Below, one piece after another: positions 5,393-25,904 of a DNA stretch of 25,904 nt. The stretch comes from CAVPRW01 sp046727435 [NCBI: bacterium] (GTDB lineage Bacteria > Tectomicrobia > Entotheonellia > J063). The position numbers and the translations under genes are program-made. Each line of letters begins with the position of its first letter. The first letter of the stretch is position 1. The stretch is from NCBI GenBank assembly GCA_046727435.1, contig JBKPCR010000178.1, forward strand, positions 1 to 25,904, in the 5' to 3' direction. The notes under the pieces are model-generated. The model had not been told where the DNA came from. It was given only the letters and a program-made list of their open reading frames with translations, and did no database searches.

Positions 5393-5582
5393 GGTACTCT
5401 CCCATGGTACGGGCCTCTCGCGGCCGTATCGTGATGGCGCGCCCTCCCAGGGTGCATCCTGGGAGGGCGTTTGTCTTGTATGCCTCTGATGCTTGCTGCA
5501 GTGCAGCGGTGAGTCGTCTGTTCCATTTCGCCATCCTCACCTTGAGCCGTCTGTCCATCGCCAAGAAAGCCGGGTCTGGCAC
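5385..5582 (-). CDS. hypothetical protein, 65 aa, overlaps replication gene
   Basis: A small basic ORF with GTG start at 5582 (or ATG 5558, giving 'MDRRLKVRMAKWNRRLTAAL'). Its last codons overlap the start of the replication gene: the SD of that gene (GGGAGAG) lies inside it and its stop TAG lies just past the ATG. This arrangement is typical of coupled operon genes and is the main support. It begins 31 bases after the end of the ParB-like reading frame. No SD is well placed for either start; an AGGAG lies about 22 bases before the GTG. No function can be given. Confidence 0.4.
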   Translation of the reverse strand: MPDPAFLAMDRRLKVRMAKWNRRLTAALQQASEAYKTNALPGCTLGGRAITIRPREARTMGEYHV

Positions 5583-5613
5583 GCTGTTACGGTGCCACCA
5601 AACGCTTCAACTC

Positions 5614-7322
5614 CTACGAAACGTTGTGCCGAGGTGATGATCCTGACATGCCCGCGGGTTCCCCTGCCGTCGCACGGGCCCTGGGTTCGCTCAGCCCTCG
5701 CCTGATCTCCTCCTGCGTCACGGAGTCCATGACTCGCACAGACGCTGGGGGGCTTGGCGGTTGAGACTCCCGACGCCAATGCCAGCGACGAGTTGAGGGC
5801 CTGTAGACGCTGTCGCACGTGCAAAAAATCGTGTCAGTCTCCTCCGAGATACATGGGAACTGCGTTGCACCACAGTACCCACATCGGGTCCGATCCCCAG
5901 GGACCGAGTGACCATGGTCAATACGGGCTGAGACGTCGATCGAGCGGGCGGTCGATGCCGCGGGGGCCATAGCCTCCTCGTCAGGATGGGGCGCTGGATG
6001 GTTAATGGTCCACCCCTCCCCTGTGCTTGGAGCGGTGTCGGAAGTGGTCTGGTCCTGCGCCGTCTGCCCTGGTGCGCCAGAGCCCTGTTCATTCGTGACG
6101 GACGGTTTGGAGCGCCGCGTTCGGGTATGCGCTGGCCTGCTGGGGGCTTGAGGCCGTTCCGGGGTCGACAGCTTCGCCTCCTCCTGGGTAGGGACCACCG
6201 GTTCGTGGGAAGGGTTCCCCTTACCACCCCCCTGAGGGGCGAGCTGGTCGCCTTCCGCCGCATCTCTACCGGAAGCCTCAGCCGATGACACGGTGACAAG
6301 CTCGCCGTTCCCCTGTGCCTGCACTGCATCAGTACCCGGAGGCAGGAATGGGAAAGGCGTGTCACCACCATCATGGCCATTCCTGGCCGCTATCTCGCGC
6401 ATGTCGGCCCCGACAATTATTTCCAGTTCACGACATAGTTCCTGTATGCGCCGAATCGTGGCCATCCCCCGGACCCTCGATTCAGGGGCCAAGCGTCTGT
6501 TCAGCGATCGGAGGCGACCCTGCGTTTGGAGCGTCTCCAGCCTCATGGCGAGATCCTGTAGGGCGCCTACCCAGCCTTCGGCATCGGCCTCCGCCGGTAG
6601 GACTGGGCTTGACCCGAGTGGCGAGCTCGCCTGTTCCACCGGCACTGGGTGCCACTCGTCGCTGACCGGGGAAGGGCGTTCCGGCGCATCAGGGACGTCT
6701 ACTGCCACTGGTGGCTCCGAGCCTGGCGCCTGGGCTTCAGTAGGGGTGTTGCGCGGTTGTGGCGGTTCCTGCCGCGCCAGTGCTTGGGCTGGTCCCTCAC
6801 TCGTAACTGAGAGGCTCTGAGAGGTTTCAGGGCCGTTCGCATCCTCAGTCGGATGAGTGGTGCGGCGCCGAGTTTTCGTGCGCGGATACGGCTTCCCATC
6901 TTTACCCTGGACGGTGGGGGAGGGGGGAGTTTACCAGAATTGGTAAACTGCTGAAGCCAGTTCCCGATCGTAGATTGGGAGACCCCTAAGAGTTGCGCAA
7001 TGCGCTCCTGCGTCTGCTCGTTGTGCCATAGCTTTTCAGCGAGCTGACGCTTCTGGGCCTTACTCAATTGGCGTCGCGCCACGTTGACCTGCCACGCATA
7101 CTCGATTTTTTGCGCCTCGGTCAGGCCTGTGATCACCCGTTTCGGACACTCGATGCCCAGTTCCTCGCAGATGTCCTGCCGTTGGTGGCCGTCGAGAATG
7201 TTCCCCTCCTCGTCAACATCCTTAGGAACCCGCACCCCATCGGCGTCGATACTCGCTTTCAGGGCTGCACGGTCTTCGGGCGATAAGTCAGGCATGAATT
7301 GATAGCGATGTTTCGGTGACAT
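5614..7322 (-). pseudogene. ParB-like DNA-binding protein, frame changes at a C-tract
   Basis: The first frame (ATG 7322, SD AAAGGAAA) encodes a ParB/Spo0J-like N-terminal domain: 'ILDGHQRQDICEELGI' around residues 42-57 is the ParB box, and 'RIAQLLGVSQSTIGNWLQQF' around 106-125 is a helix-turn-helix. At the run C-CCC-CCT (6927-6921) the family-like text jumps to the -1 frame, which continues 'VQGKDGKPYPRTKTRRR' and then a long Pro/Ala-rich region. It ends with a cysteine cluster 'CGYCG...CTC' and a stop at 5614. Joined, the product would be about 569 aa. The original frame carries on as a basic, low-quality tail to 6699. Either one C has been lost (mutation or sequencing error) or the ribosome slips here. 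The gene probably acts as a DNA-binding regulator or partition protein of the island. Domain identity is well supported; the mechanism of the frame change is open. Confidence 0.75.
6928..6949 (-). repeat. 9-bp hairpin abutting the frameshift C-tract
   Basis: The arms AGTTTACCA (6928-6936) and TGGTAAACT (6941-6949) pair perfectly around a four-base loop. Read in the gene's direction, the hairpin sits immediately before the C-run where the ParB-like frame changes. It lies inside coding sequence, within the helix-turn-helix end of the first frame. Confidence 0.6.
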
Positions 7323-7352
7323 GGGCTATTTCCTTTGGTTCATCGGGATGAA

Positions 7353-7376
7353 CGCTCACCTCATCTCGTGTGAGCG
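7353..7376. promoter_or_regulatory. dyad upstream of the ParB-like gene
   Basis: The arms CGCTCAC (7353-7359) and GTGAGCG (7370-7376) are perfect complements, 10 bases apart, centred about 43 bases before the ParB-like start codon. The spacing of about one helical turn is typical of a dimeric repressor operator. A partner such as the nearby HTH protein or the ParB-like protein itself is a guess. Confidence 0.35.
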
Positions 7377-7415
7377 CCTTGTCCGGGTTACAACTCCTCT
7401 GACCCTTTCCTGGAT

Positions 7416-7448
7416 GCAGAGGGCATATGCCTAGGGTATGCCCTCTGC
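7416..7448 (-). terminator. 12-bp hairpin after the HTH gene
   Basis: A perfect 12-bp stem, GCAGAGGGCATA (7416-7427) with TATGCCCTCTGC (7437-7448), around a nine-base loop, begins four bases after the stop of the excisionase-like gene. Its strength and place suggest a transcription terminator or mRNA 3'-end stabiliser between that gene and the ParB-like gene. No T-run follows, so it may be only partly terminating. Confidence 0.5.
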
Positions 7449-7452
7449 CCCA

Positions 7453-7716
7453 TCAGGCTCGTTCACGATCGAACCGGATCGCTTCCTGGCGATGGCTGTC
7501 GATGAAATCCTGAATATCCGAGACCTTCAGCTTCGTAAGACGGCCAACCTTGACGTATGCCAAGCGCCTTTGGCTCAACCATTGCCGTAATGTCCAGACG
7601 CTGACATCAAGGATTTTCGCGCCAACAGGGATACTCACGAGAGGTTGAACCGTCACGGTGAAGCCCGGCGAGGTCGCTTCCGCTGCTTTGCTACGTGCAG
7701 AACGTCCTCGTGCCAT
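7453..7716 (-). CDS. excisionase-like helix-turn-helix protein, 87 aa
   Basis: The 87-aa product has a short basic N-terminus followed by a MerR/excisionase-type winged HTH: 'LVSIPVGAKILDVSVWTLRQ' then 'WLSQRRLAYVKVGRLTKLKV' and 'DIQDFIDSHR'. This is the classic small DNA-binding module (HTH_17 type) found in excisionases and element regulators. The N-terminal Val/Ile helix, the 'WTLRQW' recognition helix and the 'VGRLTKL' wing are all visible. Its ATG overlaps the TAA of the previous gene (TAATG), so the two are translationally coupled. Likely roles are directing excision or regulating the island. No integrase lies in the window, so the excisionase role is inferred. Confidence 0.75.
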   Translation of the reverse strand: MARGRSARSKAAEATSPGFTVTVQPLVSIPVGAKILDVSVWTLRQWLSQRRLAYVKVGRLTKLKVSDIQDFIDSHRQEAIRFDRERA

Positions 7717-7928
7717 TAGCGGTCCCGTCCCACGTGATGCCGCGTGCCATGCTCTTGCGACACCTCGGGAATTGATGGTAGAGGGACGACCTTTCGCGTG
7801 GCTTTGTCGGCTAACCGTTCAAACAAGAGGCGGCGCACGGCGGCGATGATGTCCGCATCGCTAATGGCCACGACCGGTCGTGCGTCGGCAGGGGTGGTTC
7901 CTTCGAAGATGGCTAAAAACAGAGACAT
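7716..7928 (-). CDS. hypothetical protein, 70 aa, first gene of HTH pair
   Basis: The start at ATG 7928 is chosen because of the strong SD GGAGGTGA seven bases upstream; a longer form from 7967 would run through that SD. The product begins MSLFLAIFEGTTPADARPVV and has a central helix 'ADIIAAVRRLLFERLADKA' with a polar tail. No family is recognised. It overlaps the excisionase-like gene at TAATG. The SD lies within a large dyad (7931-7980), so translation of both genes is probably controlled there. Confidence 0.6.
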   Translation of the reverse strand: MSLFLAIFEGTTPADARPVVAISDADIIAAVRRLLFERLADKATRKVVPLPSIPEVSQEHGTRHHVGRDR

Positions 7929-7930
7929 GG

Positions 7931-7980
7931 TTTCACCTCCAGGTGGACACTGAAATGTTCCTTCCACCTGGAAAGTGAAA
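7931..7980 (-). promoter_or_regulatory. dyad covering the Shine-Dalgarno of the 70-aa/HTH pair
   Basis: The inner arms CCAGGTGGA (7939-7947) and TCCACCTGG (7963-7971), and the outer arms TTTCAC (7931-7936) and GTGAAA (7975-7980), form a nearly continuous stem around a 15-base loop. In the mRNA the gene's SD (GGAGGTGA, 7940-7933) sits within the 3' side of the stem. The element could mask ribosome entry in the RNA, or act in DNA as an operator for a dimeric regulator. Confidence 0.6.
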
Positions 7981-8007
7981 TTGGAGGGGGGATCTTTACA
8001 TCAGGGC

Positions 8008-8033
8008 AAAAAAAATTTCGGCTCGGCCGAAAT
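8008..8033 (-). terminator. intrinsic terminator of the LuxR-type HTH gene
   Basis: Read leftward, the stem ATTTCGGC/GCCGAAAT (8 bp, three-base loop) is followed by a run of seven or eight T (complement of 8008-8015). It lies 16 bases after the stop of the 93-aa HTH gene. Stem, position and T-run make a good rho-independent terminator. Confidence 0.8.
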
Positions 8034-8048
8034 CTTCAGGGAAGGAAG

Positions 8049-8330
8049 CTACAGCGCGTCATATTTCTGCTTGAGTCTGAAGCAGAGGACATCGACGGTC
8101 GTTCGCTTGATGCCGAGTTGAGCCGCCGCTTCTTGACGTGAGGCACCGCTACGTAGGAGGGCCAATAGTTCTCGTTCGCGCGGCGATGCCATACCGTCTA
8201 GTGCGGCGATGAGGGTTTGAGCTTCGAGAAGTGCCTCAGGGCTCGGGACCAAAAGACCATCGATAAGCGGCTTCTTCATCTTTATCTGTTTAGCCATCCA
8301 ATTATCGAGCCTCTCATAATCAGTTTCCAA
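8049..8330 (-). CDS. small LuxR/sigma-4-type helix-turn-helix protein
   Basis: The C-terminal half reads 'MASPRERELLALLRSGASRQ' then 'EAAAQLGIKRTTVDVLCFRL', the pattern of a LuxR-type (GerE) or sigma-70 region 4 HTH: a 'SPRERE' helix, a turn, a 'Q.LGI' helix and a 'TVDV' recognition helix. It probably binds DNA as a regulator of the island. No receiver domain is fused. The start is uncertain: TTG 8330 gives 93 aa, while ATG 8297 or ATG 8279 give shorter forms that still keep the HTH. It follows the 304-aa gene by 27 bases and ends in a terminator, so the two form one transcript. Confidence 0.65.
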   Translation of the reverse strand: METDYERLDNWMAKQIKMKKPLIDGLLVPSPEALLEAQTLIAALDGMASPRERELLALLRSGASRQEAAAQLGIKRTTVDVLCFRLKQKYDAL

Positions 8331-11199: not shown

Positions 11200-12912
11200 C
11201 TACAGGCGGATGAAATGACGCACGTCCCGGCTCTCGACCACGGTCTGGGGCCGGTCGGCACTACGCACTCCACGAATTTTCCAGTAAATCGGCTTACCCT
11301 TTGGAGCTAAATTCCACAGATTCTCCGGCATCGTCCAACTGGTCTTCCGAATGATAATTCCACCATCATAGTAAGTCGAGTAGTTACGATAGCTGAAGTT
11401 CGGGTCCAGTGACAGGTTCACACTGAAAGAGTCATTGCCGCCTGAGGTCCACTCAAACGTCGGCGGCATGCTGAGTCGAACCTCATCGGCCGGATTGAGC
11501 AGCGCAAGATACTCGCCCATCTCAAAGCCGGTCAAGGTGTACTTGAGGAGGACTGATTCCCCCTGGCTATTGACGGTCCGCAGGCGGATAGGTTTTTTCC
11601 AGAGTTCATGCAGGTATTCCAGCGTCTTCTCGGCATACTTCATGTCCAGCATCCCGAGATCCCCCTGTTCATGCTCCAGCAACAGGGTGCCGTCATCCAG
11701 CACCTTGCTGATGACGATTTTCGGCGCACCATAGTTGAAGCGCACGGCAATGAGGTTGTGGACCACCTCTTCGAGGCTGCGACTCTTGATCTCGATCTCG
11801 CCGCACTTCCGGCACTTTTTGCGGTCTTGCTCGCCGTGTTCGCACGCATAGCCGTAGGCAAATAATTCCAACTCATCGGCGAGTTCTTGGGTGAGATAGT
11901 TAGCCAGGAACGAGATATCATTTTCCTGGCGACGGATCTCGAAGAGCTTCTCACGGCCGGTCAGGGAGGATTTCCCCGCCGCGTACAACTTATCCCATCG
12001 GCGCTCGACATCAACCAAAAGGCGGTACCCCAAGTAGTAGGGATTGATGCTCATCCGGTGCCCGGGATTCACCACTCCCGCATGCAATACCCCGAAATCG
12101 ATCGTCTCACTAGGGGTTAACTTCGTATATTGATTGAGAATTTCAGCATGCCAATAGGTCGCCCAACCCTCGTTGAGAATCTTGGTCTCAAACTGCGGAA
12201 AAAAGTAGTACGACTCAGCCCGGATGATCTCCAAAACATCGCGTTCCCAAGGCTCAATGGGGGCATATTGCGCTAAGAACCACAGGAGATCTTTCTCTGG
12301 GTGCGGGGGCATTACGTCCCCGACCACCACTTTTTTCAGCGCAAATGCTTCTTCGCCGAAGAGGTCCGCATACTCGCGTCCCTTGACCTCGCGCTCGACC
12401 ACAGCTCGGGTGGGATAGGGTTTGCGCACCAATCCCTTATGAAAATCGATGTGGCGATCGATGGCAAAGGCGATATCCATCAGGCGCTCGACGCGATCGA
12501 GTCCGTAGCGGTCAATGTATTCATCAATGCGTAGGGCATGTTCGACCGCTGTGTTCACCATATTGCGGTTGGTGTCGGCGAAATAAATGTTATGCTTAAA
12601 AAAATCGACGTGGGCATAGACGTGGGCAACGACGAGCAGATTGGCGATCTCGGGATTCGTATCGAGCAGAAACGCGTAGCCCGGATTGTTATTCAGCACA
12701 ATCTCATAGATCTTCGACAGCCCCATCTGGCCATGCACGCGCTGCCGATTATACACCTTGCCGTACGACCAGTGCCGGGCCCGAGTGGGCAGGCCATAGG
12801 CAGCAACCTCGGCCATGATATCCTGCGGTACGACCTCGAAGATCACGTCGAAAAAATCCAGACCCAATTGCCGGGCAATGCCTTGCAATTCCTCGAAACG
12901 CGTATTCTCCAT
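11200..12912 (-). CDS. spoVR: SpoVR family protein
   Basis: At 570 aa it is close to the family's usual length and contains its hallmark text: 'FETKILNEGWATYWHAEILN' in the middle, preceded by 'LNNNPGYAFLLDTN' and followed by 'INPYYLGYRLLVDVERRWD'. A four-cysteine/histidine cluster 'CEHGEQDRKKCRKCG' lies in the last third and could bind a metal. SpoVR was named for a spore-cortex role in Bacillus, but it is common in non-sporulating Gram-negatives (YcgB), often near stress-kinase genes; its biochemical function is unknown. The start ATG 12912 follows a GGGGTGAT-type SD. It lies 52 bases downstream of tatA and is probably co-transcribed. The gene ends in TAG, which shows that TAG is a normal stop in this genome. 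Confidence 0.93.
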   Translation of the reverse strand: MENTRFEELQGIARQLGLDFFDVIFEVVPQDIMAEVAAYGLPTRARHWSYGKVYNRQRVHGQMGLSKIYEIVLNNNPGYAFLLDTNPEIANLLVVAHVYAHVDFFKHNIYFADTNRNMVNTAVEHALRIDEYIDRYGLDRVERLMDIAFAIDRHIDFHKGLVRKPYPTRAVVEREVKGREYADLFGEEAFALKKVVVGDVMPPHPEKDLLWFLAQYAPIEPWERDVLEIIRAESYYFFPQFETKILNEGWATYWHAEILNQYTKLTPSETIDFGVLHAGVVNPGHRMSINPYYLGYRLLVDVERRWDKLYAAGKSSLTGREKLFEIRRQENDISFLANYLTQELADELELFAYGYACEHGEQDRKKCRKCGEIEIKSRSLEEVVHNLIAVRFNYGAPKIVISKVLDDGTLLLEHEQGDLGMLDMKYAEKTLEYLHELWKKPIRLRTVNSQGESVLLKYTLTGFEMGEYLALLNPADEVRLSMPPTFEWTSGGNDSFSVNLSLDPNFSYRNYSTYYDGGIIIRKTSWTMPENLWNLAPKGKPIYWKIRGVRSADRPQTVVESRDVRHFIRL

Positions 12913-13323: not shown

Positions 13324-13803
13324 TCAGGGGATCGTCCAGCGCAGCTCATCGCCGACGTCAATCCCCGCTTTTGCCACCGCCCCGGCGTTCACTTCCAGCA
13401 CGAATTGGGCCAGACCATGTGAGCTGTAGGTGGGACAACGCGACGGTGGTCGGCAGGGAGGCACAGAAGCATAGACGGACGTGATGCGCCGCTCGGCATC
13501 GGCAAAGATGATATCCAAGGGAATCAGCGTATTGAACATCCAGAAGCTGAGTGGCTGAGCCACCTCGAAGATGAACAGCATCCCTTGATCCGCAGGCAAT
13601 GAGGACCGTTCCATAAGGCCGCGCATACGGGTCTCAGGCGTGGTCGCCAGCTCGGCGTCGACCGTTAACAGCATCGCTCCCGTGCCTGGGCGGAGGACCT
13701 CCACACGCGTGCGGGGGAGGTCAGCTGCATACAGCGAGGCCAGACCGAAAAATACCAGACAGACGACGGTGGGCCTGAGCGCCCTCAGCAGCCATCGCAT
13801 CAT
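13324..13803 (-). CDS. DUF192 family exported protein
   Basis: A 159-aa protein with a clear N-terminal signal sequence (Arg-rich start then 'PTVVCLVFFGLASLYAAD'), so it is probably periplasmic. The body matches DUF192: 'VDAELATTPETRMRGLMERS', 'GMLFIFEVAQPLSFWM', 'TLIPLDIIFADAERRI' and the terminal 'VLEVNAGAVAKAGIDVGDEL'. The family is a small beta-barrel fold with no agreed enzymatic role. The start ATG overlaps the stop of the DHOD-like gene (ATGA), so the pair is translationally coupled. The Met-rich motif 'RGLM' and the 'FWM' motif are intact. Confidence 0.88.
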   Translation of the reverse strand: MMRWLLRALRPTVVCLVFFGLASLYAADLPRTRVEVLRPGTGAMLLTVDAELATTPETRMRGLMERSSLPADQGMLFIFEVAQPLSFWMFNTLIPLDIIFADAERRITSVYASVPPCRPPSRCPTYSSHGLAQFVLEVNAGAVAKAGIDVGDELRWTIP

Positions 13804-14546
13804 GCACCGGTCTCGTGCGCCGTGCGCTTGCCGCTCAACTCCTGCTGGAGGCGTGCAAACACTCCGGGCCCTTCCTTCATCAGCGCACTACCGATCTGCA
13901 CCGCCTTGGCTCCATGACTCAAGGCCCCTTGCGCATCCTTGCCGTTCGATACGCCACCCACCGCGATGAGGTCGAGCGCCCCACCGATGGCTGACTCAAA
14001 GGCCGCTAGCTGGGGCGTGTTACACACGAAAACTTCGATCCGGTGACGCCGCAAGAGGGCGACAGCCTGCCCCATCGCCGCCTCGGGAATGCCTGGCAAC
14101 TTCACGGCCAGAGGCGCTCGGACGGCGGTGCGGACTGCTTTCACTACCTCATCCATGGCGGCAAGGTCACACGCACCGCTGCGATTGCAGGGGACGATGG
14201 GATCGCTGAGGTTGAGCTCGACGATCTGCACCCCCGCTTGCGCATAAGCTTGCGCCAGCTCTACATATTCTGCCGTGGTGAACCCGGCCACGCTACCGAT
14301 AACTGGTTCTCCTGTGGCCTTCAGCTCAGCGAGTACGGCTAGATAATAGGGTTGTCCCGGATTCTCGATGCCACACCCCTGCACTTCTTCGACGTGTGCC
14401 CGCGTTGTCGTGGTCTTGATGACGACCGCGCCCGTTGCCGAAGCCGCTAACTCGCGCAGCTCCTCATGCGTCCCTGACCATGCACCGGAAGCATTCATCA
14501 AACACGACGGGAAGGGGATACCCGCTAGTATCGTCGATACCACCAT
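13800..14546 (-). CDS. dihydroorotate dehydrogenase-like flavoprotein
   Basis: A 248-aa TIM-barrel protein resembling class 1 dihydroorotate dehydrogenases (PyrD): 'LMNASGAWSG' near the N-terminus, 'VVIKTTTT', 'GSVAGFT', 'VQIVELNLSDP', 'LAVKLPG', 'LIAVGGVSNGKDA' and 'GAKAVQIGSALM', the last two being the FMN-phosphate site. Two features differ from true PyrD. The protein is about 60 residues shorter, and the canonical 'NLSCPN' motif around the catalytic region reads 'NLSDPIVPCN'. It may therefore act on another substrate. The SD AGGAG lies about 10 bases before ATG 14546. It heads the DHOD-DUF192 pair. The fold is secure; the reaction is not. Confidence 0.75.
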   Translation of the reverse strand: MVVSTILAGIPFPSCLMNASGAWSGTHEELRELAASATGAVVIKTTTTRAHVEEVQGCGIENPGQPYYLAVLAELKATGEPVIGSVAGFTTAEYVELAQAYAQAGVQIVELNLSDPIVPCNRSGACDLAAMDEVVKAVRTAVRAPLAVKLPGIPEAAMGQAVALLRRHRIEVFVCNTPQLAAFESAIGGALDLIAVGGVSNGKDAQGALSHGAKAVQIGSALMKEGPGVFARLQQELSGKRTAHETGA

Positions 14547-16113: not shown

Positions 16114-17811
16114 TCAGCCCTCCGTATACTTTGGCAGCTCAACCCAAAAGCTACTGCCCTGTTCGAGCGCTGACTCAACACCGACATGCCCTCGCATGCG
16201 TTCCACGCTTTTGCGCACAATCGCGAGCCCGATGCCAGTACCCGGGTACGCATCGACGCCGTGTAAGCGCTCAAAGACAGCGAAGATACGTTCGTGGTCT
16301 TCTGCTGCGATCCCAATGCCATTGTCTCGTATCCATAGGCGTACCCATTCATCCCGTTCCGTCGTCCATATCTGTATGTGGGACCTTATGCCAGGGGCCA
16401 CGAATTTGAGGCCATTCATGAGGAGATTAGCGACCACTTGCACCAGCGTGGTCGAGTGCCCAAGGACTTGGAGGAGAGGCCTGTCGACGGTCACATGGGC
16501 TGCCTTAGTGCGGATTTCGGCCTTTAGTTCCGTCAAGACCTCCTCCACGACCTCCTCCAGGTTCACCGGTTCGAGCACCATGGCGGTGCGGCCGAGATGG
16601 CTATAGGTCAGGAGATCATGCGTTAGAGCATCCAGCCGGCGGGCAGCGGTCACAATGCGCTGGGCGTAGCCGCGACCTTCCATGTCCAGACAGTCGCTGT
16701 AATCCTCCAGCAGAATTTGAGCGAAGCTCTGGAGAGAGTGCAAAGGCGCGCGCAAGTCATAGGCCACAGAATACGAGAAGGTCTCCAGTTCAGCGTTCAT
16801 CGCCTGTAGTTCGGTGGTGCGCTCGGCCACGCGCCGCTCGAGCTCAATGGCATGACGTTGTACCTGCTGGAGTAATCGGGTTTATTGGATGCCAATCGCC
16901 AATTGGTCTGCTACTTCACGGGCGATGTCCACGTGCTCGGCCGTGAAGGTATCGGGCCGGTCGCTCCACAGGTCGAGCGCGCCAAGCAAGGTCCCTTGCG
17001 CCACGAGTGGGACCCGCACATAGGATCGTAGGCCCTGAACCTGCAGAGCGCAAACCATCGCGGGTGGCGAAGTGAGGGTCAGAACGTCTGTCACAAGATA
17101 AGTCTGGTTGGTCTGCAGCATCGCAAGATCCTGCAGCCCGTATGCCTGCAGCGAGATGCGTGTGCCCACCGGAAATCTGGGAGGGTCACCGCCGACGGAT
17201 GCAAGCACTAGGCTCTCGTGAACCTGCCAATCAAACAGCGAGATACCGCCTCGCCAGCAGGGAATCAAGGCACAAATGTGGCTGAGAGCACCCTGGGCAA
17301 TGGCCTCGGGCGATTGGGCAGTGAGGATAGCCCGATCGATGTTGCGTAGGATGCGCAGGCGTTCCGCGGAGCGCCGCAGTGCTTCCTCCACCCGTCGACG
17401 TTCGGCGATTTCCTCTTGCAGGGCGGCAGTTCTTTCCATCACCATGTCTTCCAGACGCATATTCAACTGCTGCAAGGCTTCCTGTGTCTGGATGAGTTGG
17501 CGATTCTTTTGGACGGCGGTTTCGTATGTGGACAGCAGCAAGTTGAGAATCTGCAGACGGTCTGAGGTGATAAAATATGTTTGTCCGGTAAAAAAGATCT
17601 CCAGCCCCACTGGTGTTCTTTCCTCCCGCCGTAGCTGCTGATTGGCGAGGATGTACTGGATGCGGCCCAGCAGGAATTGCTCATCATATGGCTTGACGAT
17701 GAAGTTATCCGCTCCACACTCCAAGCCGCGAATCACATCTCTAGGGTCGGCCAGAGAGGTCAACAGAATCACCGGAATATGGGTAAGGTCTGCATCACCC
17801 TTGATCTGACG
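16114..17811 (-). pseudogene. 3' part of a REC-GAF-histidine kinase gene, split by IS110
   Basis: This part reads, in order: the second half of a receiver domain ('HIPVILLTSLADPRDVIRGL' and 'FIVKPYD' with its Lys), a coiled coil, a GAF domain ('LRILRNIDRAILTAQSPEAI' to 'LLGALDLWSDRPDTF'), then an in-frame TAA (16884-16882). The frame then continues unbroken 'TRLLQQVQRHAIELERRVAE' into a histidine-kinase core. There the H-box reads 'SYSVAYDLRAPL' with Tyr (codon 16761-16759) where family members have His, while the ATP site ('DNGIGI', 'GTGIGLAIVRKS') is intact. The domain's first half lies beyond the IS element at 19297-19519. The gene is dead three times over: insertion, nonsense codon, and loss of the phosphoacceptor. 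It was the last gene of the chemosensory operon. Confidence 0.9.
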
Positions 17812-17826
17812 TGAAAATAATCCCCG

Positions 17827-19071
17827 TTAGGGCATGGCGTCTGTTGAGGCGCATTGGAGCGTCACGTGATAGCCGAGGCTTTCCAGACGTTTGACCAGTC
17901 GCCGAGCGGTGTCTTCCGGCTGCAGCCGGGCAAAAAAGTCGGCCCCAGCGTCGCGATAGGGCTCCTTCCGTTGAATCATGTAATAGGCCATCACCAGCAT
18001 CGAGTGAGCCACGGCTAAAATCGCGCGCTTTTTGCCGCGCCTGGCCGCCAGACGCCGGTATTGCGCACTGAGATAGGTCCCTTTCGTGCGCGCGGCGGCG
18101 TGGGCGGCTGGCACGAGGGTGGTCCGTAAGAAGCGGTTGCCCTGCCGGGCCTTGCCCGACGTGCGTTTGCCGGCGCTTTCATGGTTGCCGGGGGCGACCC
18201 CAGCCCAGGACGCCAGGTGGTCAGCGCTGGGGAAATGCGTCATATCAGTGCCGATCTCGGCGACAATCATTTCCGCCGTGCGGCGGGCCACGCCAGGAAT
18301 GGTATCGAGCAGCTCCACCGCCTCGTCAAACGGGCCACAGATCGCTTGGATCTGCGCATCGAAGCGGGCAATGGTGGCATCGAGGCTATCGATTTGACAC
18401 CACAGCTCTGTCAACACAAAGCGATGATGCGGCTTCACCCGACCGTCCAGCGCTTGCGCCAGCAGGTCGCGTTTGCTGCGCAGGCGGCCTTTCGCCAACT
18501 CGGCCAGGGCGTGGGGCTCCGTGTGGCCAGCGACCAGGGCCGCCAGCATCGCGCGGCCCGAGACCCCCATGATGTCCGACGCGACCGCGGCCAGCTTGAT
18601 ATTGGCATCTTCCAAGAGCTTCTGCACCCGATTGATCAGGGTGACCCGCTCCTGGATAAAGGTGCTGCGGTAGCGTGTCAGGTCCCGCAGTTCCCGCTGC
18701 GCCACGGGAGGGATGAAGCTGGCGCGCAACAAGCCATGCTGCAGGAGCTCAGCGAGCCACGCCGCGTCCTTCACATCCGTCTTGCGCCCAGGCACCGCCT
18801 TGGCGTGTTGGGCATTGACCAAAATCACCTCGCAGATGCCCTCCAGGATGTTGAACACGGGCTTCCAATAGTCGCCGGTGCTCTCGATGGCGACATGCGT
18901 GCACCCACACGCCAGCAGCCAATCGGAGCGCGCGAGCACATCCACCGTCATCGTCCCAAAGGTGCGAATCTCTTGGCTCCAGCCACCCTGCCCATCCGGG
19001 GTCAACACCCAGGCCACCACTGTCTTTTTATGGACGTCCAAGCCGGCGCACCGCTCGTACATGATGTGCAT
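17827..19071 (-). CDS. IS110-family transposase (DEDD recombinase)
   Basis: A protein of about 414 aa with the two IS110 domains. The N-terminal RuvC-like part has 'GLDVHKKTVVAWVL' (first Asp), 'HVAIESTGDYWKPV' (Glu) and 'GRKTDVKDAAWLAELLQHG' (two Asp). A coiled middle is followed by the transposase_20 part: 'LLDTIPGVARRTAEMIVAEI' and 'LASWAGVAPGNHESAGKRTS' with the nucleophile serine region, then 'RFLRTTLVPAAHAA'. The start ATG 19071 is preferred because GGAGG lies five bases upstream; ATG 19062 is also possible. The reading frame is intact, so the element may still be active. IS110 enzymes work with a bridge RNA that pairs with donor and target. Confidence 0.95.
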   Translation of the reverse strand: MHIMYERCAGLDVHKKTVVAWVLTPDGQGGWSQEIRTFGTMTVDVLARSDWLLACGCTHVAIESTGDYWKPVFNILEGICEVILVNAQHAKAVPGRKTDVKDAAWLAELLQHGLLRASFIPPVAQRELRDLTRYRSTFIQERVTLINRVQKLLEDANIKLAAVASDIMGVSGRAMLAALVAGHTEPHALAELAKGRLRSKRDLLAQALDGRVKPHHRFVLTELWCQIDSLDATIARFDAQIQAICGPFDEAVELLDTIPGVARRTAEMIVAEIGTDMTHFPSADHLASWAGVAPGNHESAGKRTSGKARQGNRFLRTTLVPAAHAAARTKGTYLSAQYRRLAARRGKKRAILAVAHSMLVMAYYMIQRKEPYRDAGADFFARLQPEDTARRLVKRLESLGYHVTLQCASTDAMP

Positions 19072-19077
19072 AACCAC

Positions 19078-19296
19078 CTCCGTTGGAAGAAGGCACGGCG
19101 GGCATGGATACCTGACACGTCAGATCCTGACGTGCGTGCTCAAGGGCAACAGTTGGCGGTGCCTGCAGGGACTCCGGGTCCGACGGCTGGTCAGGCTCGG
19201 GCCACCACGATCAAAAACGACCTCGGGGCCAGCCGCGCAGCTGCGGTTGTAGCACATTTTCATGGGTGGTGGTGACCACCGGTCATGGAGACTGCT
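19078..19296 (-). ncRNA. predicted IS110 bridge RNA (left-end leader)
   Basis: IS110-group elements encode a structured bridge RNA in the non-coding leader before the transposase; this element has about 219 such bases. Visible structure includes an 8-bp hairpin, CACGTCAG (19116-19123) with CTGACGTG (19127-19134), and GC-rich paired stretches nearer the left end (CGCAGCTGCG). In RNA sense the leader holds GATCTGACGTG, exactly complementary to the sequence across the right insertion junction (17803-17813), and CCAACT, which also occurs in the left flank. These are candidate guide segments. The existence of the RNA follows from family knowledge; its exact ends and loops are not determined. Confidence 0.6.
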
Positions 19297-19519
19297 GGCA
19301 GAGTTGGTAGCCATCCATCTCGGGCATGAGGATGTCGCTGATCACCGCGGTTGGCCTGTGCTGACGCATAAAAGCAATGGCCTCGCTGCCGTTTTGGGCC
19401 ACTGCACATTGGTAGCCGTGCTGCTCCAGGATATACTGCAGTTGCAGGGCCTGCGTAGGACTGTCCTCGACAATAAGGATATCCAGCCTCGCGTGTTGGG
19501 ACCCTCCATACCTATTCAC
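19297..19519 (-). pseudogene. 5' part of the REC-GAF-kinase gene, cut by IS110
   Basis: The GTG start at 19519 has AAGGA upstream and overlaps the end of cheB by eight bases, so it was coupled to cheB. It encodes the first two thirds of a receiver domain: 'LDILIVEDSPTQALQLQYIL' with the acidic pair and 'AVISDILMPEMDGYQLC' with the phosphoacceptor Asp. The domain then runs into IS110 sequence and stops after 'QQSP'. The missing beta strands, including the conserved Thr and Lys, are at 17811 downward. Confidence 0.88.
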
Positions 19520-20579
19520 TGCTTGATTCCTTTCTTTTCTTTGACACCAGCCTTATCAAGGCGGGGGCCATTCCATCGGGCGACAGCATGTAGGTCGCCG
19601 CATCGAGTTTGACCGCTTCCCCCGCCATCCCGTACACCACCGCGCTGTCCTTATCTTGCACAATAGTGATCGCGCCTTTGTCCCTCAGTAGCTTCAATTC
19701 CTCCGCTCCGTCTTTCCCCATGCCCGTGAGCAGTACGCCAGCTGCAGAGCGACTGAAGACTTGGGCCACCGACTGAAAGAGACAGGAGATCGAGGGGCGC
19801 AGCCCGTTCTTGGGCGCATCCTGGCTCAGCACGATACGACAGTCCATGCCCACTTGCAGATGCACTCCATCTGGACCCACATAGGCGTGGCCGGGCAAAA
19901 GGTCATCATCGGCGGCGGCGACGTGCACTGGAAATCCGGTGGACTGTGTCAGCCAGTCGGCAAACCCTTGAACGAATCCGGACGCCAAGTGTTGCACAAT
20001 AAGCACGGAGACAGAGAAATCTTTGGGCAGTCCGGAGAGGAGGGTCTGCAACACAGGCGGGCCGCCGGTCGAAGCACCGATAGCGACGACCTGAATGGCC
20101 GTCGACGCTCTCGCCATGTCTGCCTTCCGGGTGGCAGGAACCCTCGCCCCACTTTGAAGAAGAGGCCATCGTCTGACCACTTTGACCTCGGACATCAGCT
20201 TCACGGTTTGGATCAATTCCTGAGCCGTGGCCTCATATTCCGGATGCCTGAGGCCCTGCGGTCGAGGTACCACAGCAAGGGCGCCGGCCTCGATGGCACG
20301 AAAGGTCGTGGTGACTTCATCTGCCACCACGCTGCTATTCACGATCACGATCGGCATGGGATGGGTCTCCATGATTTTGCGGGTGGCTTCCAAACCCTTC
20401 ATCCCCGGCATGTGGATATCCATGGTGATGACATCGGGCTTTTGGCGTTGCACAGCGTCGAGGGCACCCTCGCCGTCGGAGGCGGTGCCGATGACCTGAA
20501 TCTCGGGATCAGTGCGGAGAAGGTGCCACAGAAAATCCCGTACTACGGGCGAATCTTCGACGATCAACACCTTGATCAT
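19512..20579 (-). CDS. cheB: chemotaxis protein-glutamate methylesterase CheB
   Basis: An intact protein of 355 aa from ATG 20579. The N-terminal receiver domain starts directly with 'MIKVLIVEDSPVVRDFL' and has the phosphoacceptor Asp in 'VITMDIHMPGMKG'. The C-terminal methylesterase has the catalytic set: Ser in 'AIGASTGGPP', His in 'IVQHLASGF' and Asp in 'LLTGMGKDGAEELK'. It removes methyl groups from receptor glutamates to reset the chemosensory array. A TTG start at 20615 would overlap the upstream CheA/REC frame; the ATG is preferred because it begins at the domain edge, though its SD is weak. Apart from the cheR tail, it is the only gene of the cluster without a lesion, so it may be the most recently used or simply lucky. 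Confidence 0.93.
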   Translation of the reverse strand: MIKVLIVEDSPVVRDFLWHLLRTDPEIQVIGTASDGEGALDAVQRQKPDVITMDIHMPGMKGLEATRKIMETHPMPIVIVNSSVVADEVTTTFRAIEAGALAVVPRPQGLRHPEYEATAQELIQTVKLMSEVKVVRRWPLLQSGARVPATRKADMARASTAIQVVAIGASTGGPPVLQTLLSGLPKDFSVSVLIVQHLASGFVQGFADWLTQSTGFPVHVAAADDDLLPGHAYVGPDGVHLQVGMDCRIVLSQDAPKNGLRPSISCLFQSVAQVFSRSAAGVLLTGMGKDGAEELKLLRDKGAITIVQDKDSAVVYGMAGEAVKLDAATYMLSPDGMAPALIRLVSKKRKESSSE

Positions 20580-20607
20580 ATAGGGCTCTATGGCATGGCT
20601 AGTGGAT

Positions 20608-22932
20608 TCAGACAAGTCTTTGGATCACGGCGAGGAGATCGCTCTGGTCAAAGCTGCTCTTCACCAGGTAGGCATTAGCTCCAACCTCCATGCCGCGCTC
20701 GCGGTCTGCGTCCGAAGCGAGGGCCGTCACCAGCACCACGGGTATATCGGCGAACTGCTTATCGCCGCGAATCTTGGTCGTGAGGTCGAAGCCATTCATC
20801 CGCGGCATATCGACGTCGGAGACCACGATATCGATGCCTCCACCGCGCAGTTGCGTGAGGCCATCGACCCCATCAACCGCTGTTCTCACTTGGTACCCCG
20901 CCGCCTCCAGGAGATTTCTGAGGAGCATTCGCGTCGTAATGGAGTCCTCCACAAGGAGAACAGATTTCTGCCCTGCTTCTTCTCGCTCCATAGGCGCCGC
21001 ACCGGAACGTAGCGCAGCAGCGCTCGCCCGTACCGCCGATTTCAGCACGTCGGAAACGTTGAGGACGGGTATGACTTACCCCGTGCCGCGGACCGTCGCA
21101 CCGGCGATATTCCGCACACGGGGGAGCTGGGGACCGGGCCTTTTCACCAATACTTCCTGTTCACCAAGCACGGCCTCCACGAGAAAGGCGATGCGCTTCT
21201 TGGCGGCGGCCAGCACCACCACAGGCACACCGTCCACTGCAGCGTCTGTGGCGTTTTTTCGTGAGAGCTCCAAGGTCTCTTCAAGCCGGACGAGGGAGAC
21301 AGCTTGCCCATTCAGCTGCAGCGTCTCTCGGTTCTCTACCGTTTTGATGTTCGCTTTGTTGATGCGCACCACGCTTTCCACCTGCGTCATGGGAAGCACA
21401 AAGAGGTGGTCAGCCACCTACACGAGTACCCCTCGAAAGGTGGTGAGCGTGAGGGGTAGGACGATGTGGAACGTCGTCCCGATATCCGGAGACGTATTGA
21501 CAGAGATCACCCCGCCCAGTTTTTCCGCCCGCTCCCGCACGATGGCCAGGCCGAGCCCTCGACCGGAAATGTCTGTGATGATGGGACTGGTGGATACTCC
21601 CGAGTGGAAAATGAGCGATAACACCTCTTGTTCGTCGAGGTGGTCCAGTTGTTCTTGAGCCATAAGACCGAGCTTCTGGGCGGCTGACTTCACCCGCGCC
21701 ATGTCGATTCCCGCGCCGTCGTCAGACACGAGGAGATCCACCTTGCTGCTGATCTTCTGCGAGATGGCGACTGTCACCGTTCCACGCCGCGACTTGTGCT
21801 TTCGCTCGCGCTCCTAGGGGGCTTCGATCCCGTGATCGATGCAATTTCTCACAATGTGGATGAGTGGCTCTTTCATTTCCTCTAAAATCCGCCTGTCGAT
21901 CTCAATGTCCCCGCTGCGAATGACCACCTCCACCTCCTTACCACGAGCCCGTGCCAGGTCTCGCGCAAGTTTCGGAAGGATTTCCACCAGCGACGAGAAT
22001 GGTTGCAGCGATACCTTTTTCATATTCTCCAGGAGATCGTCCACCATCCTGCCAAGTGCCCGATGATCCTGCTCAGCCGATTTTGCTAGGGTGGCAAGTT
22101 TGCTGTCGAGCGTTTTGATGTAGGCGTCATGCCTCTCCAGGAACTCGAGAAGTTGCCTCACAGGGACACTGGCGTTCTCCGCCATAGCCAGTGGGCGGGC
22201 CTGTCCGTTCCGATTGTCAGCCACTTCCAACGACCACTGTATGACACCTACAGTACGATGCATTTTCGACCATTCCTGTTGCTATACCGCGAGTATGTTG
22301 TTGATGTCGCGCAATTCGGCGACCCGTTGGTTGGCTGTCAGTTTTGCGGAGAGAAGTTTCTCCGCCTGCAGCAACAAAGCGTCCAACTTTGCCGTTGAGA
22401 TCCTCACCGTCTCTGCCAACATCGGGGTCGGAGATGAGGGGCTAGGGACCAGTGGCTGAAGAGCAGAATTGGGGATTGAGATAGGATCTCGGTCCGCGGA
22501 CCCTCGATTCCGGACCACTGACCCTTTCGGTATACCGTCAAGGCGTTGGAGTAGGCCGCTGATCAGGGATTTTTGCGCAGCGGTTGGTCCTGCCTCCGTG
22601 GCCATAAGGAGTGTGCTGAGATTGTTAACCGCTTGCTGGAGCGCATCGAACAATTCGGAGGATAACGCGATCTCCTGGCCCTTCAGGGCTGCGAAGACAC
22701 TTTCCAGCGACTGGCAGATCGCCTCGATTTCCGCCAGGTTCACAGCGCGTGCCGCCCCTTTCAGACTATGCGCCTCCCGTAAGATGGTTTCGATGATGTC
22801 CAATTGTTGGTCCGCGGCCGTGGTTTTCTCGAGTGCAATGAGACCAGAGGAAATGGTGAGGATGTGCTCGCGTGCTTCGACCTCGAAGATCGAGAGCAAT
22901 CTTCTTAGGAAATCACGGTCCCGTTTGTCCAT
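20608..22932 (-). pseudogene. cheA: cheA-receiver hybrid kinase with four in-frame stops
   Basis: One frame of 774 codons reads a complete hybrid CheA: HPt domain with His55 in 'EAHSLKGAARAVNL'; dimerisation region; ATPase core with 'IHIVRNCIDHGIEAP' (N-box), 'SDDGAGID' and 'GRGLGLAIVRE'; CheW-like domain 'HLFVLPMTQVESVV'; and a terminal receiver 'IVVSDVDMPRMNGFDLTTKI'. It is broken by TAG at 22284-22282, TAG at 21816-21814, TAG at 21420-21418 and TAA at 21078-21076, with no frameshift anywhere. Flanking texts are 'NILAV*QQEW', 'GIEAP*ERER', 'RGVLV*VADH' and 'RGTG*VIPVL'. The start ATG 22932 has GGAG upstream. CheA would pass phosphate to CheB and to receivers. All catalytic motifs survive, so the loss appears recent. 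Confidence 0.9.
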
Positions 22933-22962
22933 AGGAATCTCCGCACATGGGAGAGTCGAACG

Positions 22963-23929
22963 CTAAACTCTATATTGCGCAGCCACCTGCTTCAGCTTCT
23001 GACCGAGGTCGTGTAAATTTTGCGCTGCGCTCTCGGTCTGCTTCGCGCTCGTCACGTTCTGCGCGCTCGCCTGCTCGATGTTCTGCATCGCCAGGGCCAC
23101 TTGGTCCATCCCCACCAGTTGTTGTTGCGCCGATGCTGCAATCTGCGTCGCTGCCCGCGCCGCTTCCTCGATACTACCGGCCAGCGACCGGATCGACTCG
23201 CCCACCTCCACAGAGAGTTTCATCCCCGCCTCCACTGCCTTGCTTCCTTGCTGGGTAGCCATCACCGCTGGGTAGCCATCACCGCCGCGCTGGTTGCCTT
23301 CTGGATGTCGCCCAGGATCGCGCGCACTTGAGCTGTGGCCTGCTTCGATCGGCCAAGAATAAGGTTACCCCGATGACACACAGGAGCACACCCCCAAAAG
23401 CTATGATCGCTAGCCCGTCCCTTCCCTGCGCGCCTACAACCTCCATACGGCTTCTGTTGGCGAGCATCAGTGCATCGGAGATCATGTCCTGAGTCCTGTT
23501 CATCATTTGCCCGGTCAGCCTGGCCTCCAGCTCTTCGAGCAGTGCGCCTTTTCCCCTGTCGGTTGCCCGACCTTGGTAGCTCGAGAGGAGCTCGGAGAAC
23601 AGGGTGCGGAGGCTTTCATGTGTTTGGCGCAGCCTATCCATGATGGCTTGTTCCTCGACGCCACCGAAATCCGCCGACCTGGCCAGGAGTTTGGCGAGTG
23701 AAGCATGCTTCAGTTGCCACTATGTCTGCACGCGTTCCTCGTGCCGTAGGGCATACTCAAGGGTGAGGTACCTGAGCGAAGCCACAGCGTTGACGATTTC
23801 TCCCGCTGCCTCGTTCTTGGCAAGTTCCTGTCTCAGCTGCCGCATGGCAAAAAACAGCACGGGGCCGATGAGCAGCACGATTCCCACGGAGAAAAGTCCC
23901 GCGATGCTGAGTCGCGTCGAAATCTTCAT
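22963..23929 (-). pseudogene. methyl-accepting chemotaxis protein, nonsense codon plus internal deletion
   Basis: The N-terminus is intact: 'MKISTRLSIAGLFSVGIVLL' opens the first membrane helix, followed by a helical sensor part. A TAG (23722-23720, 'EERVQT*WQLKHAS') breaks it. The same frame continues to a second membrane helix 'LAIIAFGGVLLCVIGVTLFL'. Directly after 'LADRS' the text jumps, in another frame, to 'SKQATAQVRAILGDIQKATS', which in intact receptors follows the signalling tip. The HAMP domain and the first half of the signalling hairpin, including the tip, are therefore missing. A 17-bp tandem duplication then shifts the frame again before the last 100 residues (from 'MATQQGSKAVEAGM' to 'AAQYRV'). 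The SD GAGGA is at the start. It lies 11 bases after the solute-binding gene and was probably its partner receptor. Confidence 0.9.
23251..23284. repeat. 17-bp perfect tandem duplication in the MCP gene
   Basis: CTGGGTAGCCATCACCG occurs twice in direct succession (23251-23267 and 23268-23284). Removing one copy restores the coding frame 'AAVMATQQGSK'. This is a fresh-looking replication-slippage or repair lesion. Confidence 0.95.
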
Positions 23930-23939
23930 GCTAGATTCC

Positions 23940-24986
23940 TCAATGGATGACTGTCACGGACTCAGGCTTCACGGCTCTCAAGCCGTCTAGATACACGTAA
24001 TTCAAGTAATTGGGAATGTCGGTTCTGGCTGTGAGTTCATTCTTGATCGCCTACCGCGTTTCATCCTCCAGAGCGAGCAGCAGGCTTTGGTTCAACGCGA
24101 TGTTGAAGCGGTAGGTCGGCCACAGCTCGTTTAGGCTTTCAAGGCTCACATTGAGGCCGCTTGCGACGATCTTGCGCTCCGCATCCGGGTCATCCTTGCA
24201 GAATCGCTCCGCACGGACCAGAGCCCGCAAGAGTTTCTTGATCGTCTCGGGATGGCTGACCACACAGTCCCGCGTTCCCGCGAGGTTGTATGGCAGCTCA
24301 TAGATTCCCTCACTGTAAAAGATGGTGCCGTTTTCCCCAAGCTGAGCTCGCAGCACACCCATGTACGGCTCCCATGTCGAGACAGCGTCTACCTCACCCT
24401 TTACTAGAGCATCGGAAAACTCCTCCGGTTTTAGGTCGTGCAGCTCGATGTCATCGGTCGACAGTTTCTGCCTGATGAGAAGGGCGTCTAGCACGAAGTG
24501 TGCGCTCGTGCCCAGCGTGACGCCGATGCGTTTGCCGTTGAGACTGGCCACTGTCAACACGCCTTTATCCTTTCTACCGATGATGCCGTGATCTTTCTCC
24601 ACCGTAAGAATTGTTGCGACGATAGACACCGGCCGCCCTTTCGTCACCGCGAACATGATGGGAAGGTCGGCCACGGTTCCGAGGTCGGCTCGTCCTTCCA
24701 AGGCCGCATCCAACGCGGCCTTTCCGGTTGTGTAAGGCTGCAACGTGACGCTCAGGCCCTCGGTCGCGAAATATCCTTTCACTTGCGCGACGAATATCAA
24801 GCCCGTTCCCGCATAGTGGGTGTTGGCGGCAAGTGTCATCGGTTCGGGCAGCCCGGCGGGCTGCTCCGGTGAAGTCCGTGCCATCCACGTATAACCCGCG
24901 GCCAATAACGCCACGAGAACGAGCGTGCCCATCATTGCGTACCGTACCGCATCCTTTCCGAAAAAACTTGCCGGCCGCTCTGTCAT
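23940..24986 (-). pseudogene. NitT/TauT-type solute-binding protein with in-frame TAG
   Basis: The start ATG 24986 has GAGGAG upstream. The protein begins with a cytoplasmic stretch and one hydrophobic helix ('YAMMGTLVLVALLAAGYTWM'), so it is probably anchored to the inner membrane. It then reads as a SsuA/NMT1-like binding fold: 'HYAGTGLIFVAQVKGYFATE', 'DLGTVADLPIMFAV', 'LNGKRIGVTLGTSAHFVLDA' and 'VDAVSTWEPYM'. The TAG at 24053-24051 interrupts 'LALEDETR*AIKNELTA', where relatives have Trp. The frame continues 35 more residues ('DIPNYLNYVYLDGLRAVKPE') to TGA at 23940. No permease or ATPase genes lie beside it, and the MCP follows at 11 bases. It therefore probably delivers a ligand signal rather than transport. 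The truncation removes only about a tenth of the protein. Confidence 0.85.
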
Positions 24987-25049
24987 TACGATTCTCCTCA
25001 ACAAATTCGCTCAGAGTTCGGGTCATTCATGAGGTTTCGAGGAACAACT

Positions 25050-25694
25050 TCATCGGTTGTCGCCTTCTACCTCTTCAAGGACGATCAACTTGCGGTCCGC
25101 CAGTAATGCGCCGGCATCCAAAATCACCAGCCGATCGCTGGTCACAGCTTTGAGATATGCTGCCCGAATACCGGTGAGGGTGGGGAGCGATGGTTGAATG
25201 CTATCGAGCGGAATAGACCGCACGCCAAGAATGGCATCTGACAGAATCCCAAACACCATGGTGGCATCGTGCACCACGATGACCTTATTGAGGTCGGTCA
25301 GCCCTTTCTCCGGCAAATCAAAGAATTTCTTGAGATCGAGGACTGAGAGGATCTATCCGCGAACGTTGATAATACCCAATACAAATGGCGGTATGCATGG
25401 CAGCGGCGTGAGTTCTTTCAAGGGATAGACCTCGCGGACGTACGACGATTCAACGCCGTACGTCTCATAGGCCAGGAGGAACTCCACGACTTCGAGACCT
25501 TCCTGAGTGGCCTCCTCCCGCTCGGATTCCCGCGCCAGCGTTTGCGCTCGCGTGCGCAGGATTTTTTGCCTCTCCTCGCGCATCGGCATTACCCCATGGT
25601 CGAGCCACGTCCGGGAGGCCTCCAGATGCCGGTATACCGAGCTCCAATCGGTGCCTACTGGCTGTTTCGCGTCTAGTGGGAATGGTTCTGACAT
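25050..25694 (-). pseudogene. cheW: CheW-like coupling protein with in-frame TAG
   Basis: An N-terminal helical extension of about 60 residues is followed by a CheW domain: 'EVVEFLLAYETYGVESSYVR', 'LTPLPCIPPFVLGIINVRG', then TAG (25355-25353). The same frame continues with the second half, 'ILSVLDLKKFFDLPEKGLTD' and 'VFGILSDAILGVRSI', ending at TGA 25050. The usual residue after 'INVRG' is Gln or another polar residue, so CAG-to-TAG is the simplest event. CheW links receptors to CheA. The gene lies 37 bases after cheR and 63 before the solute-binding gene. The SD GGGAAG precedes ATG 25694. An N-terminal fragment alone cannot fold as the double barrel. Confidence 0.88.
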
Positions 25695-25731: not shown

Positions 25732-25904
25732 TTATCGTGTCGTGTGTTGCTGATACATTGACGCGATGATTTCCCTGAGCCGCCCGGCTGTCATCCCTTC
25801 GGACTCGGGCAGAATCTCGTCTGGTTGAGAGGTGCTCAAGAGGGCGAGGACGGTCTCGAGATGCTTGGCTGCTTCTTTGCATTTTCCTTGTCGCAGCTCC
25901 AGCG
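25732..25904 (-). CDS. cheR: C-terminus of a CheR-TPR methyltransferase (partial)
   Basis: The gene runs off the right edge of the window; only the last 56 codons are visible, ending in TAA at 25732. The text 'LELRQGKCKEAAKHLETVLA' looks like a TPR helix pair, and 'LPESEGMTAGRLREIIASMY' matches the tail of CheR proteins that carry C-terminal TPR repeats (WspC-like). Such enzymes methylate receptor glutamates using SAM. The visible part has no lesion. The call rests on this short tail and on its place next to cheW. Confidence 0.6.
   Translation of the reverse strand, partial: LELRQGKCKEAAKHLETVLALLSTSQPDEILPESEGMTAGRLREIIASMYQQHTTR

Follow-up and report, generated by a model that had tools for sequence, protein, structure and literature searches.

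Mixed lesions in a decayed chemosensory operon: in-frame stops, a deletion, a tandem duplication, and an IS110-family insertion

Does a chemosensory operon interrupted by in-frame stops in gene after gene call for a special mutational process, or has it simply decayed? The question arises from the window, by which we mean the whole stretch of DNA analyzed here, 25,904 nucleotides long. The original prediction had read the stops as transition-type nonsense mutations, perhaps left by a short deamination-like burst. The disabling lesions turned out to be of several kinds, namely, stops, a deletion, a tandem duplication, and the insertion of an IS110 element. The locus is very probably an ordinary decayed operon, no longer functional and now drifting, with an IS insertion among its mixed lesions, under the known GC-to-AT bias of bacterial mutation. 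The decay as such was borne out, with eight stops in five genes, while the cheA frame was open in all 80 of the homologs kept (the best 80 of 441 relatives), which indicates that the cheA reading frame is normally kept whole.

Layout of the operon and its in-frame stops

The features of the operon, all on the minus strand, are as follows.

25732 to 25904, minus strand: 3′ end of a cheR-TPR gene with stop TAA, the remainder lying outside the window
25050 to 25694, minus strand: cheW pseudogene, TAG at 25353; PF01584 (E 1.2e-28) when read through
23940 to 25004, minus strand: NMT1/THI5-like binding-protein pseudogene, TAG at 24051; PF09084 (E 4.4e-30)
22963 to 23926, minus strand: mcp pseudogene with TAG at 23720, a large deletion, and frame changes
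23252 to 23285, minus strand: 17-bp unit in two tandem copies inside mcp
20608 to 22932, minus strand: cheA pseudogene (Hpt, HATPase, CheW, and receiver), TAG at 22282, 21814, and 21418, TAA at 21076
19512 to 20615, minus strand: cheB, uninterrupted reading frame; PF01339 (E 3e-54) and PF00072
19292 to 19504, minus strand: hybrid kinase, first part of the receiver domain, 61% identical to residues 2-72 in the kinase of a related locus, L002
17827 to 19077, minus strand: IS110-family transposase within the kinase gene; PF01548, PF02371, and flanking sequence
16114 to 17810, minus strand: hybrid kinase, remainder; TAA at 16882; GAF, HisKA, and HATPase_c; Tyr at 16759-16761

The five genes originally named (cheW, binding protein, MCP, cheA, and hybrid kinase) are thus present, but the set is larger, with the stop-free cheB inside it and, at 25732 to 25904, the tail of a cheR-TPR gene. 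The latter shows 57% identity to residues 451-501 of the CheR-TPR protein of another related locus, L001, in which PF01739 and TPR were matched.

Each of the eight stops, TAG at six sites (25353, 24051, 23720, 22282, 21814, and 21418) and TAA at two (21076 and 16882), is in frame and has coding sequence on both sides. The residues that homologs carry at these sites, given here as tallies and not as ancestral reconstructions, were Gln in 32 of 62 aligned homologs for cheW (65 matches, 3 of them unaligned) and Gln in 4 of 4 rows, taken as two distinct genes, for the MCP. Trp was found in 5 of 6 rows (i.e., 3 of 4 distinct genes) for the NMT1 protein and in 67 of 80 homologs at codon 217 of cheA. 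At the other three cheA sites, the 80 homologs had Glu 36, Asp 13, and Gln 5 (codon 373), Arg 46 and Gln 5 (codon 505), and Lys 47, Arg 13, and Gln 8 (codon 619). The kinase site is unconserved, with no consensus and Gln in 1 of 22 rows. Against the expectation of Gln at seven sites and Trp at one, Trp occurs at two sites (cheA codon 217 and the binding protein) and Gln is in the minority at three in cheA. Judged by these tallies, a single transition is the favored origin at four stops (cheW, MCP, binding protein, and cheA codon 217) and a possible but not favored one at the three cheA stops where most homologs do not have Gln; the tallies are silent on the eighth.

Deletion, duplication, and insertion

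The mcp gene has a deletion of about 160 to 210 codons after the second membrane helix, a size taken from the spacing of 162 to 211 codons between the same points in four intact MCPs of related loci, and its N- and C-terminal parts lie in different frames. What is left of the MCPsignal domain in the window is a weak match covering only positions 109-170 of 172, and the N-terminal part matched no Pfam family. Set beside the intact MCP of L002, which has four-helix-bundle, HAMP, and full MCPsignal domains, the remnant shows that the deletion took the HAMP domain and most of the signaling domain. In addition, a 17-bp unit is duplicated in tandem (one copy from 23252, the other from 23269), which puts mcp out of frame once more.

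Neither the NMT1 gene nor the N-terminal part of the MCP had a match in any of the 80 related loci. An NMT1 match was present in 14 of 30 searched genomes of these loci, the best being 42% identical. In another locus, L147 (10467-12720), a sensor kinase of similar N terminus has two NMT1-like genes next to it, perhaps forming a binding-protein-dependent input module.

The hybrid kinase gene is split in its receiver domain, where the piece at 19504 to 19292 aligns with L002 kinase residues 2-72; what is left of the gene lies below about 17810, and the IS110 element stands between the two. The element extends from about 19291 to about 17810, both ends being approximate, in the same orientation as the kinase, and both family domains, DEDD_Tnp_IS110 (PF01548; E 3.4e-28) and Transposase_20 (PF02371; E 1.4e-22), were found. 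About 215 noncoding bases precede the transposase; such noncoding stretches in IS110 elements can hold a guide (bridge) RNA. No Rfam family scored above its gathering score in the window, and no tRNA was found there. Farther along the kinase, the phospho-acceptor position is Tyr (TAT at 16759-16761), as predicted, in a column where at least 90% of 70 homologs have His. This is a C-to-T change, and the phospho-acceptor is among the 3 of 20 conserved columns at which the catalytic part of the kinase departs from its homologs.

Substitution types and the shortage of indels

We compared the types of substitution at conserved columns, defined by at least 90% agreement among homologs, taking in each case the nearest homolog codon, a choice that favors short paths. 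Besides the kinase, departures were found at 12 of 169 such columns in cheA, 2 of 34 in cheW, and 2 of 26 in the MCP remnant. Only 2 of the 17 single-step changes in the decayed genes were C-to-T or G-to-A (2 more changes in cheA need several steps), compared with 3 of 6 in cheB and 1 of 3 in SpoVR (where 3 more need several steps). In the decayed genes, a burst ought to have pushed this proportion up. The transition signature is unsupported, and the predicted excess over cheB and SpoVR did not appear at these conserved sites. As many departures or more were found, at the same 90% threshold, in 3 of 80 homologs of cheA, 17 of 61 of cheW, and 12 of 73 of the MCP remnant, and likewise in 3 of 68 homologs of the stop-free cheB and 1 of 26 of SpoVR. 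By this measure, the decayed cheW and the MCP remnant do not stand out. Conserved-site departure does not tell dead from living genes here, which speaks against our reading, and is weakened as a test of decay. Within cheA, stops and missense changes at near-invariant sites occur in a neutral proportion (P 0.17-0.25).

Four substitution spectra were modeled, including an illustrative GC-to-AT-biased one. Under these, 2.7 to 3.7% of random changes in the frames concerned create a stop, so that the eight stops imply 217 to 294 substitutions, or 3.3 to 4.4% per site. Transitions make up 25 to 73% of new stops depending on the spectrum, and 64% under the illustrative biased one. In the four supported stops, a small sample, the changed C is preceded by A, A, C, and C, so that no TC context is shared; DddA-type deaminases prefer TC. 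PMC2936535 gives C/G-to-T/A transitions as the most frequent mutation in the five lineages of bacteria that it describes.

A short deamination-like burst, with C changed to T on either strand throughout the operon, would account for the four stops best explained by single transitions, for the His-to-Tyr change in the kinase, and for a cheA without frame-changing indels. However, four transitions in four such stops have a P of 0.11-0.17 under ordinary transition-biased spectra, three cheA stops stand where most homologs do not have Gln, and the conserved-site changes and 5′ contexts do not bear the expected mark. The operon also contains indels and an IS. We consider a burst highly improbable, and transition-only change is likewise unsupported in view of the conserved-site counts and of the indels and IS.

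The cheA gene does run, as predicted, in one frame across 774 codons to TGA at 20608 with no frame-changing indel, and when read through it matches Hpt, HATPase_c, CheW, and Response_reg. Across the full operon, the picture of decay by stops only, with no indels, is contradicted by the deletion and the 17-bp duplication in mcp and by the IS110 element in the kinase. How unusual the lack of indels is depends on the ratio of indels to substitutions, for which the data of Table 1 in PMC4978911, by our calculation, yield values between 0.10 and 0.36 across seven bacteria; the lower ratios of 0.02 to 0.05 used below are assumptions and not measured values. For cheA, four stops without any frame-changing indel have a P of about 0.003 at a ratio of 0.10 and 0.02-0.14 at the assumed ratios (0.001-0.14 overall). 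For the whole operon, two indels, both in mcp, beside eight stops give a P of 0.0007 at 0.10 and 0.02-0.26 at the assumed ratios, leaving the IS uncounted. A lower ratio is reasonable because indels fall mostly in simple repeats in the two Vibrio species that PMC5854121 treats, and cheA has a single homopolymer of six or more.

The indel shortage of cheA, measured against mutation-accumulation ratios, is the sole part of the surprise voiced in the original prediction that is left standing. There is a small chance that a process confined to this locality, making substitutions only, inactivated the operon or at any rate cheA, and left nonsense codons without the small indels that come with neutral decay. 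If the shortage in cheA held against a close relative, it would be informative on how often indels arise in wild bacteria away from simple repeats.

Other explanations, related loci, and known systems

Five flanking genes, encoding SpoVR, an aminotransferase, a DUF3854/DUF927 protein, a dihydroorotate-dehydrogenase-like protein, and a DUF192 protein (2,244 codons together), have 0 stops, versus about 8 expected as computed at the stop rate of the operon (P about 3e-4). This argues against a general sequencing or DNA-damage artefact as the source of the stops, as does the presence of an IS insertion, a large deletion, and a duplication, none of which can be base-call errors. An artefact of sequencing, assembly, or DNA damage is accordingly very improbable. 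The stop-free cheB, with 1.2 stops expected (P0 0.30), is uninformative in this respect, and the transposase, with 0 stops versus 1.3 to 1.5 expected, says little.

It could also be supposed that TAG and TAA have a sense meaning, e.g., Gln, or are suppressed, with the genes expressed whole. The kept frame of cheA and the lack of TGA among the eight internal stops would fit this, although TGA is missing by chance with a P of 0.14-0.20, which is not significant. Homologs have Trp at two of the stops and Glu, Arg, or Lys at others, besides Gln, so that no single residue fits a recoding. Moreover, TAG terminates cheB, SpoVR, and the mcp remnant, TAA terminates the transposase and the aminotransferase, internal TAG and TAA codons are absent from the flanking genes, and the MCP and the kinase carry other lesions. 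We give recoding scarcely any credence, and the same holds for a cheA divided into domain proteins, each with its own start, that would still function jointly. In favor of such a split, start codons lie close behind several stops, pieces of 149, 119, 113, and 146 amino acids follow the four stops, and the stop at codon 505 falls at the ATPase/CheW boundary. The stop at codon 373, however, cuts the ATPase domain (355-495) just past a stretch common to homologs, the MCP lacks its signaling tip, and 0 of the 80 kept homologs are split.

The ordinary decay of the operon would have begun with some lesion that silenced the pathway, the others then building up neutrally under a GC-to-AT-biased spectrum. 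The intact system would have been a chemosensory pathway at the membrane. In it, an NMT1-type binding protein anchored in the membrane would have fed into a receptor of the four-helix-bundle type, and the outputs would have been a CheA-receiver protein and the hybrid kinase. Read in this manner, the locus documents how a chemosensory pathway was lost, one of the lesions being an IS110 insertion. Runs of in-frame stops that seem to bear a special signature should first be checked against homologs and for indels nearby.

Elsewhere in the window, 2786-8330 holds plasmid- or phage-like genes for DUF3854/DUF927 primase-like, ParB-like, and excisionase-like proteins. This run had nothing close to it among plasmids, the DUF3854/DUF927 protein had no relative in viral contigs, and a plasmid megablast with positions 1-24900 of the window gave no match. 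The SpoVR-family protein (11200-12912) was at most 48% identical, over a partial stretch, to anything found; its matches came from 26 of 198 genomes of the phylum of a further related locus, L003 (within that same limit), and from 0 of 245 sampled genomes of the phylum of L002, which makes that phylum an improbable home for the host. A dihydroorotate-dehydrogenase-like protein of 248 amino acids (13800-14546) matches its family in disjoint segments, as though its middle had been lost.

Related loci were obtained by scanning the contigs of a genome collection with CheA, which gave the 441 relatives; the best 80, those analyzed, show 41 to 58% CheA identity. The full set of cheW, mcp (by its C-terminal part), cheA, cheB, and the kinase was matched in 63 of the 80 loci, several of which are cut by contig ends. 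No CheA above 58% was found among 395 genomes sampled from the phylum of L002, and the best CheB reached 61% in the phylum of L001 (396 genomes) and 62% in that of L003 (395 genomes).

Among known systems, the operon is most readily compared with the clusters of cheW, mcp, cheA (with receiver), cheB, and hybrid kinase found in environmental bacteria and archaea, i.e., the 80 loci that include L001 and L002. It resembles them in gene content and in order, cheW-mcp-cheA-cheB-kinase on one strand being the order in 53 of the 80, but five genes of the window copy are broken, and its NMT1-like gene had no match in these loci. In L147, the two NMT1-like genes adjoin an 809-amino-acid protein whose N terminus matches the sensor part of the window MCP at 26%. 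The sensor of that protein is coupled not to an MCP signaling domain but to a histidine kinase part (36% against the window kinase). As for the mode of decay, the stops, deletion, duplication, and IS insertion are like those of bacterial pseudogenes in neutral decay, and transition-rich mutation is reported in PMC2936535 to be general in bacteria, although the operon, above all cheA, has fewer small indels than mutation-accumulation ratios suggest.
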